This document shows, one piece after another, positions 6,557-55,230 of a stretch of DNA of 64,000 bases. The notes beneath the pieces were generated by a model. The model was not told where the DNA came from. It worked only from the letters and a program-made list of their open reading frames with translations, and ran no database searches. The stretch comes from Pedobacter sp. Leaf250 (GTDB lineage: Bacteria; Bacteroidota; Bacteroidia; Sphingobacteriales; Sphingobacteriaceae). The position numbers and the translations under genes were made by a program. The DNA is taken from the NCBI RefSeq assembly GCF_920984735.1, contig NZ_CAKLBU010000001.1, positions 186,001-250,000 on the forward strand, given 5' to 3'. How positions within the stretch are numbered: the first letter of the stretch is position 1; the number at the start of each line of letters is the position of its first letter.

Positions 6557-6886
6557 TTAAGCAGATTTATCAGGTGTTACCATTTTCAATCCAACAATAG
6601 AAAGGATTAGTAAACCTATAAAAAATATTCTCCAAAAGTTGGCATCCTCTTTAAAGTAGAGTATTCCGACCAAAACGGTACCCACAGCACCAATACCCGA
6701 CCAAATGGCATAAGCTGTACCTAGCGGAATTTGTTCAATTGCCTTGGTTAAAAACACAAAACTGATAATGACACAAACCACAAAGGCAGTAGCCCATTTC
6801 CAATTTGAAAATCCTTCTGATAATTTTAATGATGTAGTAAATCCAACCTCGAATAATCCGGCTATAATTAGTAAAATCCAATGCAT
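6557..6886 (-). CDS. Small multidrug resistance (SMR) family transporter
   Basis: This 109-aa protein has four predicted membrane helices, the classic SMR architecture of a dimeric proton-coupled exporter in the inner membrane. The essential membrane Glu is at position 13 (AGLFEVG). The signature GTAYAIWSGIGAVGT resembles the SugE/Gdx (guanidinium exporter) branch more than EmrE, but one window is not enough to fix the substrate. I looked for a guanidine riboswitch upstream and saw no obvious structure. It stands alone on the minus strand, 136 bp upstream of the MBL gene. Confidence 0.9.
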   Translation of the reverse strand: MHWILLIIAGLFEVGFTTSLKLSEGFSNWKWATAFVVCVIISFVFLTKAIEQIPLGTAYAIWSGIGAVGTVLVGILYFKEDANFWRIFFIGLLILSIVGLKMVTPDKSA

Positions 6887-7052
6887 AATGTGCTCTTTAG
6901 TTTTTAATGAAAATTTTGTAAGTTAATAATCGAACAGATAAAAGAGCTAAATGTTTTAATGGATGACCTAATTCATTCGTTGTGAGGTGCGAAGCAATAT
7001 GCTTGATATTATCAATACTTGATCTGCTTAGTTATGTGACTATAGCCATAAC

Positions 7053-48294: not shown

Positions 48295-48310
48295 TACCAT
48301 GCGTATGGTA
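48295..48310. promoter_or_regulatory. Inverted repeat TACCAT-GCGT-ATGGTA, putative response-regulator site
   Basis: A perfect 6-4-6 dyad (7-2-7 in NarL heptamer terms) abuts the -33 TTG of the sensor-kinase promoter. The same design occurs at 50996-51011, before the lipoprotein operon. Confidence 0.6.
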
Positions 48311-48340
48311 TTGTAGAGCATTGTATACTATTTAGTTTTG
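48311..48340 (+). promoter_or_regulatory. Promoter of the sensor kinase/response regulator operon
   Basis: TTG at 48311-48313, exactly 19 bp, then TAGTTTTG at 48333-48340 (TAnnTTTG). Transcription would start about 48347, giving a leader of ~138 nt before the kinase ATG. Confidence 0.65.
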
Positions 48341-48484
48341 TAGTGGTAGCAATTAAGATCGATGATATTCCTCTTCAGGATATCCATCAATAACCATGTT
48401 TTATTATGCATGTTGTTGATCTACAGTGATTTTTATTTTGATATACCATATAAAAATTCAAGGTAATTGCTTTTATTTGTTCAT

Positions 48485-50350
48485 ATGCTTTCAAAAATTA
48501 TCCCACCCTTATTGTTGCTGTTGGTGTTATTTAGCAGTTGCAAAAAAAACAAAAATGAAACGGTTGCCACATCGGCTCCACGTTTATCAAAAATGACCGC
48601 AGAATCATTGTTGATATTTGCTGATTCCATTAAGAAGAACTCGTCCAAATCTGATCTTAAGAAGAATCCATCTTACCTGATCGCAATGGGGTTTTATCAT
48701 GCGAAATCAGCAAAATACCGGCTATCGAATCAAATTTTTAAAGAGGCATTGGCTGTAGTAAATGATAAAGACCTTTATGCCTTAGGTAAAATCTACCATG
48801 GTTTGGGTAATGCTTCATTCAACATGGGAGAACACCCTGAAGCACTCAAGCTTTATACAAAAGCTTTACAGTATTTTGCAAAAATTGGCGATACTAAATC
48901 GCAAGCTGGAATACACTCAAATTTAGCACAACTTTTTCAACTTGATAATGATCATGCACAGGCCAGGTTACATGTAAAAACAGGGCTGGCGCTGCTTGAG
49001 AATCAAAAAAAGTCTTCTGCATATTTACTTATGCTACATGCCATGGCGAATATTTATGGCCAAAGCAATTTCATTGATAGTGCATTAATGCTTGATAAAG
49101 AAGGTTTAGCCATTTCATATGAAATCAATTTACCAGAATACACCTCAATGTTTTTGGATAATAAGGCCAATTGCTTTATGTATAGCAATAGGCCAGATAG
49201 CGCCAAAAAATATTTTTATAAAAGTATGGCTATTGATATGGCTGCGGGAAATATCAAGCAACAATCTGATACCTGGCTTAATTTAGGTGTTTTAGCATCT
49301 ATGCAGCAACAACCTGATAGTGCAGAAAAATATTTTAAAAGGTCTATTTCACTGGCCGATCGTTGTGGCTACAAATTAGGTAAAATGTATGCATTGAAAT
49401 CTTTGGGAGAACTTTACCAGGAAAAAAAACAATTTGAAGCTTCACTGAAAACACATAAAGCATATTTTGCGGTGAAAGATAGCATTGCTAATGAAAAAAA
49501 AGATGCCGCAGTTGCCGAATGGAAAGCGGTATTTGATACCGAGCAAAAAGAACAGGAAATTAAAATGGGCAAGGTAATGCTCGATCGCCAAAATATGATG
49601 ATTTACGGTATTGGAGTGATTTCTGTGTTGGCTCTATTAACTGTTTATTTTGCAGCAAAACGAAACCAGGTTCGTAAAGAAAAGACATTTAACGAACTGG
49701 CTTTTCAAAGAGAACAAAAGGCTGCAGCGGATGTAATAAATGCCGAGGAAGCTGAAAGGAGACGCATTGCGGCAGAACTTCATGATGGTGTTGGGCAAAC
49801 AATGACCGCCGCATGGCTTAACCTTCAAGCCATTGGAGCTGGTGCCAATATCAAGCCAGCAGATTCGGAGCTCCTGCAAACCACCACCAATCTGGTTCAG
49901 GAAAGTTGTACAGAAATTAGAGGAATTAGCCATAATATGATGCCTGATGTATTGCTTTCCAAAGGTCTGGTTCCTGCCACAAAAGCCTTTACAGCCAACA
50001 TTTCTCAGGATCATTTTTCGGTTATGGTATCGGCTGATGAGCAGGAATCGAAACTGGATAAAATGCAGGAACTTATGCTCTATAGGGTGATACAGGAATG
50101 CGTACAAAATACAATAAAACATGCCAGTGCCACTGAACTGGATATTTCCATTAATCATGAACCAGGTAGCATTTCTTTAATGATCGAGGATAATGGAAAA
50201 GGCTTCAATCCAAAACAAAATTTAGAAGGTGAGGGTTTGGGGATGAATAACATACGTAGTCGTGTAAATTACCTGAAAGGAACAGTAGAGTGGAATAGCA
50301 GTATAGAATACGGAGGAACGCTCGTAGCCATTCATATCCCGATATCATGA
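48485..50350 (+). CDS. TPR-containing sensor histidine kinase (NarL-type partner)
   Basis: This 621-aa kinase has a lipoprotein-like or signal N-terminus (MLSKIIPPLLLLLVLFSSCKK), about six tetratricopeptide repeats over residues 70-340 (LGNASFNMGEHPEALKLYTK and similar), a membrane helix at 371-391, then HisKA_3 with phospho-acceptor His ~433 in RRRIAAELHDGVGQTM and a HATPase with N-box CVQNTIKHA and DNGKGF. It would sense a protein or peptide signal in the periplasm through the TPRs and phosphorylate the regulator encoded next, whose ATG overlaps its stop by 4 bp. The open frame begins 18 nt earlier. Confidence 0.94.
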   Translation: MLSKIIPPLLLLLVLFSSCKKNKNETVATSAPRLSKMTAESLLIFADSIKKNSSKSDLKKNPSYLIAMGFYHAKSAKYRLSNQIFKEALAVVNDKDLYALGKIYHGLGNASFNMGEHPEALKLYTKALQYFAKIGDTKSQAGIHSNLAQLFQLDNDHAQARLHVKTGLALLENQKKSSAYLLMLHAMANIYGQSNFIDSALMLDKEGLAISYEINLPEYTSMFLDNKANCFMYSNRPDSAKKYFYKSMAIDMAAGNIKQQSDTWLNLGVLASMQQQPDSAEKYFKRSISLADRCGYKLGKMYALKSLGELYQEKKQFEASLKTHKAYFAVKDSIANEKKDAAVAEWKAVFDTEQKEQEIKMGKVMLDRQNMMIYGIGVISVLALLTVYFAAKRNQVRKEKTFNELAFQREQKAAADVINAEEAERRRIAAELHDGVGQTMTAAWLNLQAIGAGANIKPADSELLQTTTNLVQESCTEIRGISHNMMPDVLLSKGLVPATKAFTANISQDHFSVMVSADEQESKLDKMQELMLYRVIQECVQNTIKHASATELDISINHEPGSISLMIEDNGKGFNPKQNLEGEGLGMNNIRSRVNYLKGTVEWNSSIEYGGTLVAIHIPIS

Positions 50351-50991
50351 ATAAGCCTATGAACATCCGTTTGGCTATTGCCGATGATCATCAGATTGTG
50401 ATTGATGGACTTTGTGCTGCCTTAAAAAATTTCCCTTTCATCACTGTAAATGCCACGCATACCAATGGAAAGTTATTATTGGATAACCTCAAAAGTATTC
50501 CTGTTGATGTGCTGTTAACTGATGTGATGATGCCCGAGTTTAGCGGGTTGGAACTTGCAGTTGCCTTAAGGCAAGAATTTCCAGACGTAAAAATTATTGC
50601 CTTAAGCATGAGTGGCACTGGTTTGTTGGTAGAGGAGATGATTAATAAAGCGGGCATTGAAGGTTATTTGCTTAAACATTGTGGTATTGATGAATTAACT
50701 GATGCCATTCAAAAGGTATTTGCAGGCGGGCATTATTTTCAACCAACAGTGTTAGATGAATTGTCAAAGCACATTCAACTAAGAATTGATACGGTAGCGG
50801 TTCGGCTAACTACAAGAGAAAAAGAAATTATTGCGCTGATGGAAAAAGACTGCAGTAATAAGCAAATTGCAGATGTTTTATACATTTCTGTTAGAACTGT
50901 TGAAACCCACAGAAAGAACATTTTCAGAAAGACAGGTACCAATAATTTACTGGGATTAGTAAAGTGGGCCTACGAACATAAGATCCTGTAA
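50347..50991 (+). CDS. Response regulator, NarL/LuxR family
   Basis: This 214-aa regulator has a receiver domain with acidic pocket Asp13/Asp14, phospho-acceptor Asp59 (LLTDVMMPE), Ser/Thr in ALSMSGTG and Lys in YLLKHCG, plus a C-terminal LuxR helix-turn-helix (LTTREKEIIALMEKDCSNKQ, then VETHRKNIFRKTGTNNLLGL). It is translationally coupled to the kinase (ATGA overlap). NarL-like proteins bind inverted heptamers, and such dyads abut the promoters of its own operon and the next one, making it the best candidate for their regulator. Confidence 0.95.
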   Translation: MNKPMNIRLAIADDHQIVIDGLCAALKNFPFITVNATHTNGKLLLDNLKSIPVDVLLTDVMMPEFSGLELAVALRQEFPDVKIIALSMSGTGLLVEEMINKAGIEGYLLKHCGIDELTDAIQKVFAGGHYFQPTVLDELSKHIQLRIDTVAVRLTTREKEIIALMEKDCSNKQIADVLYISVRTVETHRKNIFRKTGTNNLLGLVKWAYEHKIL

Positions 50992-50995
50992 AATA

Positions 50996-51011
50996 TACCG
51001 TTGCGACGGTA
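50996..51011. promoter_or_regulatory. Inverted repeat TACCGT-TGCG-ACGGTA, putative response-regulator site
   Basis: A perfect 6-4-6 dyad sits 4 bp after the response-regulator stop and directly abuts the -33 TTG of the following promoter. It shares the outer TACC...GGTA and the exact placement with the site at 48295. Confidence 0.65.
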
Positions 51012-51041
51012 TTGTGCAAAATTTGAGCGAGCTTAATTTTG
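51012..51041 (+). promoter_or_regulatory. Promoter of the lipoprotein/TPR/propeller operon
   Basis: TTG at 51012-51014, exactly 19 bp, then TAATTTTG at 51034-51041 (TAnnTTTG). The ATG follows after 4 nt, so the mRNA would be leaderless or nearly so. Confidence 0.65.
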
Positions 51042-51045
51042 TGAT

Positions 51046-52314
51046 ATGGAAAATAAATTTTCAATATTACTTTTAACCAGCTGCCTTATTTTGGCCTTCG
51101 GATGTAAAAAAAATGAATCACTTGTTAAAGAGGATTTGGCAAATGATTTGGCACCTTTTTTCACCCCTGGAAAAGGTTTCAGGCATGTTTATACCGTATC
51201 AGAGGCTACTGCAGGTTTTGTTTCCTTTTTTCAATCAAAAGATCTTTCTGCAACCGATGATGGCAAATTACATTGGGTGTATGATCGCCATAATCCATTT
51301 AGTAAATCGAGGTATTTATACCGGAGCACCATCAATGCCTCAACAGGAGAATTATTACCAACCCAGGGAAAACCCGTAGATAAACTTGCCGACAATTATC
51401 AATGGTATAATAATGCGAATGATATAAATAAAGGCGACCGGGTAAATTTTGTTCCGTATACAGGAAATCTTTATTTAAGCTATCAATCGGCTGGCGGTAC
51501 GTTCAGCGCATCAGGCGATGTGCCCCGATTTGATTATTTGGATTATAGCTTTAATCAACACCCATACATTTACGCCAATGGCGATGTTTATATGTCGTTC
51601 TTTGAAACGGGCAGTACAGATATAGCAAGGGTTTACAGCAGAATTACAACCTTCATTTGGCGCAATGGTATCAAATCAAAAGGTGCTGGTATTGCCAGGC
51701 AATTGTGGAATTATCGGGATATGGCGATTGATTCCCTTTGGCATAAAGCAATTTCTTTTCCGGCAGGGAATAATGGTGAATCACTAGCCTGCACTTTCGA
51801 TGAGCACTCCATTTATTTATATGATGATAAAGGCAAAGTGGTGGCTACAACACCATTTGCTGGAAGAAAATTTCCCACAACCGGAGATTCGTACGCTGCC
51901 GATATTAAGTGGTATGCCAAAACATCAAAAGATATGAAGAAAGTTACTTTAATGGTTGCAGATGTCGATCGCAAAGAAGCTGTATATTATTATAGTACTT
52001 TCAGTATTGATGTTGCTACCAAAAAGATAACTGTTCTAGTTAACAATGCATCAATCGCTAAAACACCACCCATGGACTTTGATTTAGATGGAAATATCTA
52101 TTATGGAAGTTATCCAGAGCAACAAGGTGCAGTAACAGAGGTGATTAAGGTTAACGCCTCTGGCGGAAAATCGGTAATCGCCACCAATTTTATAGGCAGG
52201 CAATTAGTAGAAAAACTTTATGCACTAAACGGTAAGGTTTACATCACTGCGGTAAGCACGGCAACAGTAAAGGGCGAAAACGTAACTCGCCTTACGCTTT
52301 TGGAAAGTAATTAG
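51046..52314 (+). CDS. Putative lipoprotein, possible beta-propeller, 422 aa
   Basis: The protein has a lipobox (LTSCLILAFGC, Cys ~20) followed by KKNE, then ~400 residues of repeated short strands with aromatic turns (HPYIYANGDVYMSFFETG, DFDLDGNIYYGSYPEQQG, LYALNGKVYITAVS). This suggests a propeller on the cell surface or in the periplasm. No family is recognised. It is first in a likely operon with the TPR protein (31-bp gap) and the PQQ-like protein (71-bp gap), under a promoter with the presumed response-regulator dyad. It may be part of the sensed or produced envelope machinery. Confidence 0.8.
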   Translation: MENKFSILLLTSCLILAFGCKKNESLVKEDLANDLAPFFTPGKGFRHVYTVSEATAGFVSFFQSKDLSATDDGKLHWVYDRHNPFSKSRYLYRSTINASTGELLPTQGKPVDKLADNYQWYNNANDINKGDRVNFVPYTGNLYLSYQSAGGTFSASGDVPRFDYLDYSFNQHPYIYANGDVYMSFFETGSTDIARVYSRITTFIWRNGIKSKGAGIARQLWNYRDMAIDSLWHKAISFPAGNNGESLACTFDEHSIYLYDDKGKVVATTPFAGRKFPTTGDSYAADIKWYAKTSKDMKKVTLMVADVDRKEAVYYYSTFSIDVATKKITVLVNNASIAKTPPMDFDLDGNIYYGSYPEQQGAVTEVIKVNASGGKSVIATNFIGRQLVEKLYALNGKVYITAVSTATVKGENVTRLTLLESN

Positions 52315-52345: not shown

Positions 52346-53020
52346 ATGAATATCAGATTAATCATTCTCGTTTTATTCTTCTTTGCTACAGGCATTTTCC
52401 AATTAATGGGCCAGGATATTTCTGCTGATGCCAAAATCGCAGCAAAGGAAAATAATTTTCAGCCAGCTATTTTGGAACTGACAAACATCATCGCAAAAGA
52501 TGTAAATAATGAAAAAGCACTTGTAACCCGTGCTAACTGTTACATCAGAACCGGAAATTCGAGTGCTGCACTTACAGATGCTGAAAATGTAATGAAGATC
52601 AACCCCAAAAATGCCGAGGCGGTTTTTCTGGCAGCAACGGCAATGATTGGTCTTAAAAATTATAATAAAGCTATCGATTATCTCAATCAGGCATTAACAT
52701 TAAAACCGAATTGGTTACAGGCATTACAGTTCAGGGGTAAATTATATGCCCAGATGAAAGTGTCTGATTTAGCCATTGCCGATTTAAGCAAAGTCATTTC
52801 TGCATTGCCAAATGGTGCTGAAGCTTATTTATTTCGTGGCCAAATGTATGCTCAAAAAATGAAGTTTGTTGATGCCATGAATGATTTTATTAAAGTAACT
52901 GAAATTGCTCCATTGGGATCGAAATTGAGTGAGATGGCTAAAGAAGAATTTAAGATAGCTGAAAAGGATTACAATGAGCATGCAAAAATTGGTGGAGCCA
53001 TTTTCAGATCAACACAATAA
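52346..53020 (+). CDS. Secreted TPR protein
   Basis: This 224-aa protein has a signal peptide (MNIRLIILVLFFFATGIFQL, cut near LMGQD) and four to five tetratricopeptide repeats (VTRANCYIRTGNSSAALTDA, FLAATAMIGLKNYNKAIDYL, YLFRGQMYAQKMKFVDAMND). TPRs mediate protein-protein contacts. The neighbouring sensor kinase also carries periplasmic TPRs, so the two may share a ligand or partner. It is probably periplasmic and co-transcribed with the lipoprotein upstream. Confidence 0.86.
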   Translation: MNIRLIILVLFFFATGIFQLMGQDISADAKIAAKENNFQPAILELTNIIAKDVNNEKALVTRANCYIRTGNSSAALTDAENVMKINPKNAEAVFLAATAMIGLKNYNKAIDYLNQALTLKPNWLQALQFRGKLYAQMKVSDLAIADLSKVISALPNGAEAYLFRGQMYAQKMKFVDAMNDFIKVTEIAPLGSKLSEMAKEEFKIAEKDYNEHAKIGGAIFRSTQ

Positions 53021-53091: not shown

Positions 53092-55230
53092 ATGAAAAAA
53101 AGTTACATCATTGCACTATGCTGCCTTTCTATGGCAGCGCCTGCTTCAGCACAGTTTGGAAGGCTGAAAAGCCTGGTTAGCAAAAAAGATAAGCCAGCTG
53201 CTGAAACTGCTGAAAATAACACTACAAATAATTCCGCTTCGCCTGTTGAGGAAGAGAAGGAAACCAATATCGCTGGTATTCCTGCAGCAGTAAAAAGCTG
53301 GAGCATGGATTATGATAGTAACATCGATTGGTTTAGGCTAAGTCCTACAGGAAGGTTGATAGCGGGTACTAATAACGGACTTTATGGCCTTGATCCCAGT
53401 ACAGGAAAAGTAGCCTGGAAACACGATTTCTTGAAAAATATTACTAAAACAAATTATAATCCCATCAGTAATTCGCCATTTATAGCCATCGTAACGGGGA
53501 GCATGTTTAATATGCAGCAAGTTATTTTAGATGTTAGTTCAGGAAAAATTATTGCCAATACCTCCGAATTGGGAATGAAGATGGTTAATAAAAGATATAC
53601 TGTTCCATCGATGGGCGGCATCCTATTTTCAGGATATTTAAATAATGCACCTTCGCTGGTTTTTATTGATGCGGCCACAGGCGAAAAAAAATGGGTATTA
53701 AGCAAAGTGTTTGATAGCAACAGCGAAGTAATGGTGGCTAAACCACTTGCTGATGGTAAAAATGCATTGTTATTGGCCACTAATAAACGTATTTACAAAG
53801 TGGATGTAAACTCTGGAAATGTAATATGGAAGGCAGATTTCAAAACCAATACGGACGAAGGAGTTTTGGCTACCGATTTGGCTGAGGAAGTAGAGGAGAA
53901 GGAAAGTACAAAGGCTGATGAGAAAAAAGGTGGTTTCATGAAATCATTAGGTGGCTTAGGTAAAGTTCCGGGATTAGGCGCAGTTGGGAGTGCGGCCGGT
54001 GCAGCAAATTCGGCAAGCAAAATGGGTGGAATGGGTGGAAGCATGAAAGATGGTATAGCCGTTTTAGCCGATGCAGCTTATGGTAAATTCTTAATTCTCG
54101 ATAATCAGCCAGGTGTGGTCTATTATTATTCAAACCAACAAATGTCTGCTTTTAACCTGAGCAGCGGTACGCAAACCTGGCAAGCAGTTAAATTTTCTGA
54201 TCCAGTAGCGCAGGTATTATATGATGAAAGAGGATTTCTAATTTCAACGGATGATAAGAGAGCAGAATTAATACTCCTGGATTATAAAACAGGTGTAGAA
54301 AAGTGGAAACCAGTTACCTTAAGAGGGCGCATTACAGCTTTAAAGTTAAAGGGAAGCAGTTTAGCTATCGCATCAGCGAAAGAGTCGGGGAATAATTTTG
54401 TAAATATCATCGATATCAATTCTGGTTCAACCGCTGCTAAATCCGATATGAAAGTATCAGGTTACATTATGGATATTAAGCAGAATAATTCAGGCTTAAT
54501 ATATAGAACCGACCGTGAGCTGAACATTCAGGATCTCGCGACTGGTAAAGATGTTTGGGCAAAATCATTAGCCTATAAAAGAGGTGGAATCGGGATTGAT
54601 AAAGGCAATACCACTTATTTTTTTGCCGACAACCAATTGTATTTTATGGATAATGAATCTGGAGATTACAAGCCCCTGGGCAAAAGTTTAAAATTCGGGG
54701 GCGATGAAACTCCTGCGGGAATTGAATTGCGTGAGAAAGGGATATTAGTGAGTTCTTCGCAAAATATGGCATTATTTGATTGGAATGGAAACCTTATTTA
54801 CCACATTTATCAAAAGGCACCAGGTACAAGTTTGGCCAATAAGATTATGAACATAACTGCTATGGCAGTTTCGGCCAGCAATTCTGCTGCGCATGGTTTT
54901 CAAGCTGGTTTATCCGGACCTAATACCACTTCCTACAACAGCAACATGGCTGCTTCAGATCGTTGGGCTAACTTAGGAAGTGCCGCTTTATCAGATATGA
55001 AACGTCGTTTTACGGCTTCGCAAGATGCGCTGAACTATAAAGTTATTTTAACCAATGTTCAAACCAGCGACGATAGTGGTTATGGATTGGTAAGGGTGAA
55101 TAAGGATACTGGTAAAATAGAAGGAAAAGTAGTGTTGAGCGATAAAAAGCCAGATTACATTGCAGATGATACTGATAATATGGTTTTCTTAAAAGACGGT
55201 AATAAAAGCATAATCGGATATAAATTGTAA
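53092..55230 (+). CDS. PQQ-like beta-propeller repeat protein, 712 aa
   Basis: The protein has a signal peptide (MKKSYIIALCCLSMAAPASA) and several PQQ/WD-type blades with the W-x-x motif (GLYGLDPSTGKVAWKHDFL, KVDVNSGNVIWKADFK, LDYKTGVEKWKPVTL, IQDLATGKDVWAKSL). A Gly/Ala/Met-rich insertion lies at about residues 280-320 (GGLGKVPGLGAVGSAAG, MGGMGG). BamB-like scaffolds and quinoprotein dehydrogenases share this fold; no catalytic Asp or disulfide for PQQ is evident, so a scaffold or sensor is more likely. It is last in the operon, followed by a terminator. Confidence 0.85.
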   Translation: MKKSYIIALCCLSMAAPASAQFGRLKSLVSKKDKPAAETAENNTTNNSASPVEEEKETNIAGIPAAVKSWSMDYDSNIDWFRLSPTGRLIAGTNNGLYGLDPSTGKVAWKHDFLKNITKTNYNPISNSPFIAIVTGSMFNMQQVILDVSSGKIIANTSELGMKMVNKRYTVPSMGGILFSGYLNNAPSLVFIDAATGEKKWVLSKVFDSNSEVMVAKPLADGKNALLLATNKRIYKVDVNSGNVIWKADFKTNTDEGVLATDLAEEVEEKESTKADEKKGGFMKSLGGLGKVPGLGAVGSAAGAANSASKMGGMGGSMKDGIAVLADAAYGKFLILDNQPGVVYYYSNQQMSAFNLSSGTQTWQAVKFSDPVAQVLYDERGFLISTDDKRAELILLDYKTGVEKWKPVTLRGRITALKLKGSSLAIASAKESGNNFVNIIDINSGSTAAKSDMKVSGYIMDIKQNNSGLIYRTDRELNIQDLATGKDVWAKSLAYKRGGIGIDKGNTTYFFADNQLYFMDNESGDYKPLGKSLKFGGDETPAGIELREKGILVSSSQNMALFDWNGNLIYHIYQKAPGTSLANKIMNITAMAVSASNSAAHGFQAGLSGPNTTSYNSNMAASDRWANLGSAALSDMKRRFTASQDALNYKVILTNVQTSDDSGYGLVRVNKDTGKIEGKVVLSDKKPDYIADDTDNMVFLKDGNKSIIGYKL

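Follow-up and report, generated by a model that had tools for sequence, protein, structure and literature searches.

The heptamer consensus of the response regulator NarL is TACYNMT. In E. coli, NarL activates from a 7-2-7 site, two inverted heptamers 2 bp apart, placed next to the −35 element at yeaR and ogt, yeaR having one such site immediately before the −35 element and ogt two, one of which abuts it (PMC7419079). Among Bacteroidota, Porphyromonas gingivalis has the two-component pair FimS/FimR; in its target cluster, FimR binds at the promoter of the leading gene (PMC1974823). The TAnnTTTG box of Flavobacterium psychrophilum occupies positions −12 to −5, and 5.5% of the mRNAs in that species were leaderless (PMC9723704). 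A search of the open-access literature for a defined operator of LuxR-type response regulators from Pedobacter or Chitinophagaceae returned none.

In the window, the whole 64-kb stretch of Pedobacter sp. Leaf250 DNA that was analyzed, two promoters carry inverted repeats to which, judged by comparative sequence analysis, the response regulator encoded between them very probably binds. The sequence-only reading had described two perfect dyads, each followed by TTG, 19 bp and TAnnTTTG, with no further exact copy, and the window bears this out: TACCATGCGTATGGTA (48295–48310) and TACCGTTGCGACGGTA (50996–51011) are both perfect 6-4-6 inverted repeats, TTG and exactly 19 bp separate them from TAGTTTTG (48333–48340) and TAATTTTG (51034–51041), respectively, and no third exact dyad copy was found in the 64 kb. 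Close relatives of the regulator are present in L008 (Pedobacter sp. Leaf176, 77%), L009 (P. agri, 72%) and L010 (a Chitinophagaceae MAG, 64%). The features of the locus are as follows.

48295–48310, + strand: operator 1, TACCAT-GCGT-ATGGTA, predicted centre −42.5
48311–48313, + strand: TTG that may serve the kinase/regulator promoter as −33 element, kept in L008, replaced by TTA in L009 and TCC in L010
48333–48340, + strand: −7 box TAGTTTTG of the kinase/regulator promoter, predicted transcript start near 48345
48485–50350, + strand: sensor kinase with a lipoprotein-like N-terminus, TPR repeats, a membrane helix, HisKA_3 and HATPase_c
50347–50991, + strand: NarL/FixJ-type response regulator with receiver and GerE DNA-binding domains, recognition helix SVRTVETHRKN
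50996–51011, + strand: operator 2, TACCGT-TGCG-ACGGTA, predicted centre −42.5, beginning 4 bp behind the regulator stop codon
51012–51014, + strand: TTG that may serve the target promoter as −33 element, present also in L008 and L009, absent in L010, L013, L015 and L018
51034–51041, + strand: −7 box TAATTTTG of the target promoter, predicted transcript start 51046
51046–52314, + strand: secreted lipoprotein with lipobox LAFGC, first gene of the target operon
52346–53020, + strand: TPR protein of the target operon
53092–55230, + strand: secreted beta-propeller protein (PQQ/BamB-like), conserved as the downstream target

The kinase, for which a TTG at 48467 is an alternative start, belongs to the HisKA_3 (NarX/UhpB/LiaS-like) kinases, with HisKA_3 at 46.6 bits and HATPase_c at 48.1 bits, both over the cut-off, and the regulator likewise belongs to the NarL/FixJ (LuxR-type) regulators (PF00072, 70.1 bits; PF00196, 57.9 bits; over the cut-off). 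No Pfam or NCBIfam match was obtained for the lipoprotein, and its AlphaFold model (pLDDT 37) was uninformative and was discarded. The TPR protein found no match at L008 or L009.

The combination of elements is rare in the window, which contains, on both strands, 27 perfect 6-4-6 dyads and six TTG-N19-TAnnTTTG strings; the two together were observed twice, against 0.017 expected per simulated window and a maximum of one in 60 first-order Markov sequences. The bare dyad is not rare and means little alone, since TACCRT-N4-AYGGTA occurs seven times in the 4.82 Mb genome, exactly as often as the reversed-pattern control, and it was therefore dropped as a signal. The genome-wide scan placed a dyad with a −7 box 20–24 bp away at these two promoters only, with no third place even when the box was relaxed to TAnnTT, and the strict regulon predicted in the Leaf250 genome is just these two promoters.

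Applying the F. psychrophilum box placement to the window gives the predicted starts at 48345 and 51046 and the dyad centres at −42.5. Since position 51046 is the A of the lipoprotein ATG, the lipoprotein mRNA is predicted to be leaderless. The three Pedobacter loci have TATGGAA in common just behind the −7 box; in L008 and L009 that ATG opens only 72- and 43-codon frames, which are not gene-like, so the leaderless ATG was dropped as a conserved feature and the prediction is kept for the window alone.

Both dyads are retained at the orthologous loci L008, L009 and L010, with no loss seen there. Upstream of the kinase, all three carry a TACC-N8-GGTA dyad, which is symmetric in P. agri (TACCCT/AGGGTA), imperfect in Leaf176 (TACCGT/AAGGTA) and perfect in the MAG; the inner AT/AT of the window stands against CT/AG in P. 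agri, a symmetric change in a leader that has otherwise diverged, and against an imperfect GT/AA in Leaf176. Behind the regulator match, TACCGT-N4-ACGGTA lies at 8 bp in L008 and L009 and at 18–19 bp in L010 and L018. Across 145 Pedobacter genomes, a regulator ortholog (E ≤ 1e-60) was detected in three, and the pattern TACCNT-N4-ANGGTA-N21-23-TANNTTTG occurs 10 times: twice in each of the three regulator genomes, once ahead of the kinase and once behind the regulator, and singly in 4 of the 142 genomes without the regulator, none of which has two sites (paired sites versus regulator, Fisher p about 2e-6, not corrected for phylogeny). The generic core across Sphingobacteriaceae was set aside as evidence, being present in 164 of 301 genomes with the reversed control also common.

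Among the window genes tested, L008 and L009 share only the kinase, the regulator and the propeller gene. Since the flanking genes differ, the kinase and regulator genes, the operators and the propeller gene seem to form a portable module, which appears from these comparisons to travel as one block. All three Pedobacter loci may go back to a single ancestral module and would then not count as independent events. A propeller homolog stands behind a dyad in L008, L009 and L045, and also in L166, where it is unlinked to the regulator; in another two Pedobacter genomes the propeller gene occurs with neither this regulator nor the dyad.

Several other features were observed in Pedobacter. In P. agri, a third TACC-N8-GGTA dyad (L009, 3865–3880, minus strand, 23 bp from TATTTTTG) precedes a divergent MORN-repeat ORF, possibly an extra regulon member, and the propeller ORF of the same draft contig seems frameshifted near the N-terminus (6750–6950, two tblastn pieces in different frames). 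Two Pedobacter loci from genomes without the regulator, L128 and L129, show a conserved GGTGGGTA...TACC...GGGGATTTCAGC element upstream of the propeller gene, which has no match in Rfam, and a different gene after the propeller gene, resembling a TPR kinase by eye. The Rfam search gave nothing but a tRNA.

The distance between dyad and −7 box was also found to spike at 22–23 bp, and three counts that left the spacing open agree on this. In 80 regulator loci plus the window, with the spacing not fixed beforehand, TACC-N8-GGTA stood 22 bp from a −7-like box in 22 cases and 23 bp in seven, with 0–2 cases at each of the other distances up to 59 bp, and in 197 Chitinophagaceae searched with the spacing free from 10 to 38 bp, seven of nine matches fell at 22–23 bp. 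The 15 regulator-bearing genomes contain 28 exact dyads, 16 of which have a −7 box at 22–23 bp, in one orientation, and five of which are orthologous deoC sites with the box at 5 bp. By a hand tally not corrected for phylogeny, a promoter site at 22–23 bp is present in 12 of the 15 regulator-bearing genomes versus 5 of 195 family genomes. The spike agrees with a class II promoter, in which the site abuts the −35/−33 element at a fixed distance from the −10/−7 element. The TTG had been read as part of the signature, which holds in the window; outside Pedobacter it is the spacing that is conserved and not the −33 sequence, as in L010, L013, L015 and L018, which have no TTG yet keep 22–23 bp to the −7 box.

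Ahead of the kinase or behind the regulator, TACC-N8-GGTA shows a 10-fold enrichment. Outside Pedobacter, Chitinophagaceae with close regulator relatives have the dyad at local as well as unlinked promoters. The perfect dyad is missing from the kinase/regulator locus of many close Chitinophagaceae relatives (L011, L012, L014, L016, L019 and others). The unlinked propeller homolog of L166, from the genome of L015, is 43% identical to the window protein and has a dyad and TTG-N19 before a weak −7 box. A small lipoprotein family with the motif CDSAYAS.QYK.IFVYKG (L166, 5303–5752; L146, 978–1451; L163, 970–1440) was noticed after the L166 propeller gene and, in the L018 and L013 genomes, immediately downstream of a dyad promoter. 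Five Chitinophagaceae genomes with no detected regulator of the subclass have one dyad promoter site each, suggesting that related regulators may share the dyad site. Regulator presence in Chitinophagaceae with a single unlinked site (4/6 vs 4/20) concerned the ERTVETH class throughout and was rejected as uninformative for the window regulator. At deoC in the Sediminibacterium-type genomes of L142, L145, L156, L159 and L164, 5 bp separate TACCGT-N4-ACGGTA from the TATCTTTG box downstream of it, a repressor-like placement; the Sediminibacterium sites are partly orthologous.

The sites had also been assigned to the NarL type, and this stands for their architecture: the 6-4-6 dyad has the same 16-bp footprint as a NarL 7-2-7 site, and both sites and their relatives show that layout. 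It does not stand for the base code, since 25 of 26 half-sites of the subclass have T at base 6, where the NarL consensus has A or C, and the sites are thus better called NarL-like. Related Chitinophagaceae regulators appear to share the TACC-N8-GGTA core, though with another base at the inner position. At base 5, G is found in 16 of 26 half-sites of [V/I]RTVETH regulators and C in 23 of 32 of ERTVETH regulators (G preference, Fisher p about 2e-4, exploratory and not corrected for phylogeny). The chances seem slightly under even that TPR-kinase/LuxR-type pairs in Sphingobacteriales and Chitinophagales generally use TACC-N8-GGTA, placed 22–23 bp ahead of TAnnTTTG, as a class II operator, with base 5 read through the recognition helix.

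We consider it probable, with good confidence, that the dyads are the operators of the regulator at 50347–50991 and serve class II activation of its own and the adjacent operon. The regulator is the predicted binder because the same sites recur at the same promoter distance where the regulator is found elsewhere and are nearly absent where it is not. The membrane kinase at 48485 would sense an envelope signal and phosphorylate the regulator, a dimer of which would bind the 16-bp site through its TACC-N8-GGTA core, the inner base pair preferably being G/C. From an operator that lies 22–23 bp ahead of the −7 box and immediately precedes a −33 element that is weak or missing, the dimer would act as a class II activator through contact with RNA polymerase. 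The regulator would thereby activate its own operon, presumably in a positive feedback loop, together with the neighbouring operon, of which the secreted beta-propeller protein is the conserved product. The resemblance of this geometry to NarL at ogt and yeaR suggests both the class II activation and the positive autoregulation.

The same operators and regulator could also act in the opposite sense, the phosphorylated regulator repressing both operons in negative autoregulation. A dimer at −42.5 would lie partly inside the region covered by polymerase, and the five Sediminibacterium-type deoC sites described above have the same dyad closer still to the box. Outside Pedobacter, however, the −33 element degenerates at the kinase and target promoters and the 22–23 bp stay, which fits an activator replacing the −33 contacts; repression is regarded as unlikely. 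That some other DNA-binding protein occupies the dyads in place of the linked regulator is quite improbable: the genome does hold 14 GerE matches, and related regulators elsewhere appear to use the TACC-N8-GGTA core, but paired sites occur in regulator-bearing Pedobacter genomes only, at the regulator locus, and among the 11 GerE proteins of the genome with a readable helix, VRTVETHRKN is present only in the window regulator.

There is very little chance that the dyads are RNA hairpins, for instance terminators of the preceding genes. In the window a stop codon precedes each of them by 4–24 bp, as terminators would have it, but no T-run follows them, and the fixed 22–23 bp to the −7 box would be left unexplained. 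For operator 1 this reading is ruled out, as the upstream gene is divergent in L008, L009 and L010.

Activation of both promoters by the linked regulator thus remains the preferred reading, and the proposal that they form one regulon is supported by the comparative tests that the sequence-only reading had proposed, none of which gave an outcome that would refute it. For Bacteroidota promoters it supplies a concrete predicted operator together with its regulator and a rule for the spacing, and it predicts targets in other genomes by simple search. A TPR-type kinase would be linked to a secreted beta-propeller protein, and the small self-contained module of kinase, regulator and two promoters is directly testable.

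Compared with known systems, the closest solved full-length structures to the window regulator are VraR/LiaR (7ve6, 4gvp; E about 1e-25), a comparison that covered the proteins; these regulators serve the cell-wall stress response of Firmicutes, and their kinases are of another type. FimS/FimR is likewise a Bacteroidota two-component pair, and the FimS model matches the window kinase along the TPR-to-kinase stretch, although at 48.4 bits against an NCBIfam cut-off of 600 the kinase is not a FimS; FimS/FimR concerns fimbriae, unlike the propeller operon here, and no dyad or class II geometry was found in the passages on FimR consulted in PMC1974823. E. coli NarL differs in the A or C at half-site base 6 where the window has T, in its kinase NarX, whose sensor part is unrelated to that of the TPR kinase, and in its promoter, that of the window being of Bacteroidota type; the NCBIfam NarL model scores 83.9 bits against a cut-off of 250, too low for a NarL ortholog. 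However, the window regulator belongs to the same superfamily (NarL 1a04, E 1e-17), its predicted 16-bp inverted site has the same TACC...GGTA ends and is likewise placed directly upstream of the −35 region, and the predicted dyad centre at −42.5 is close to the position from which NarL activates at ogt and yeaR.
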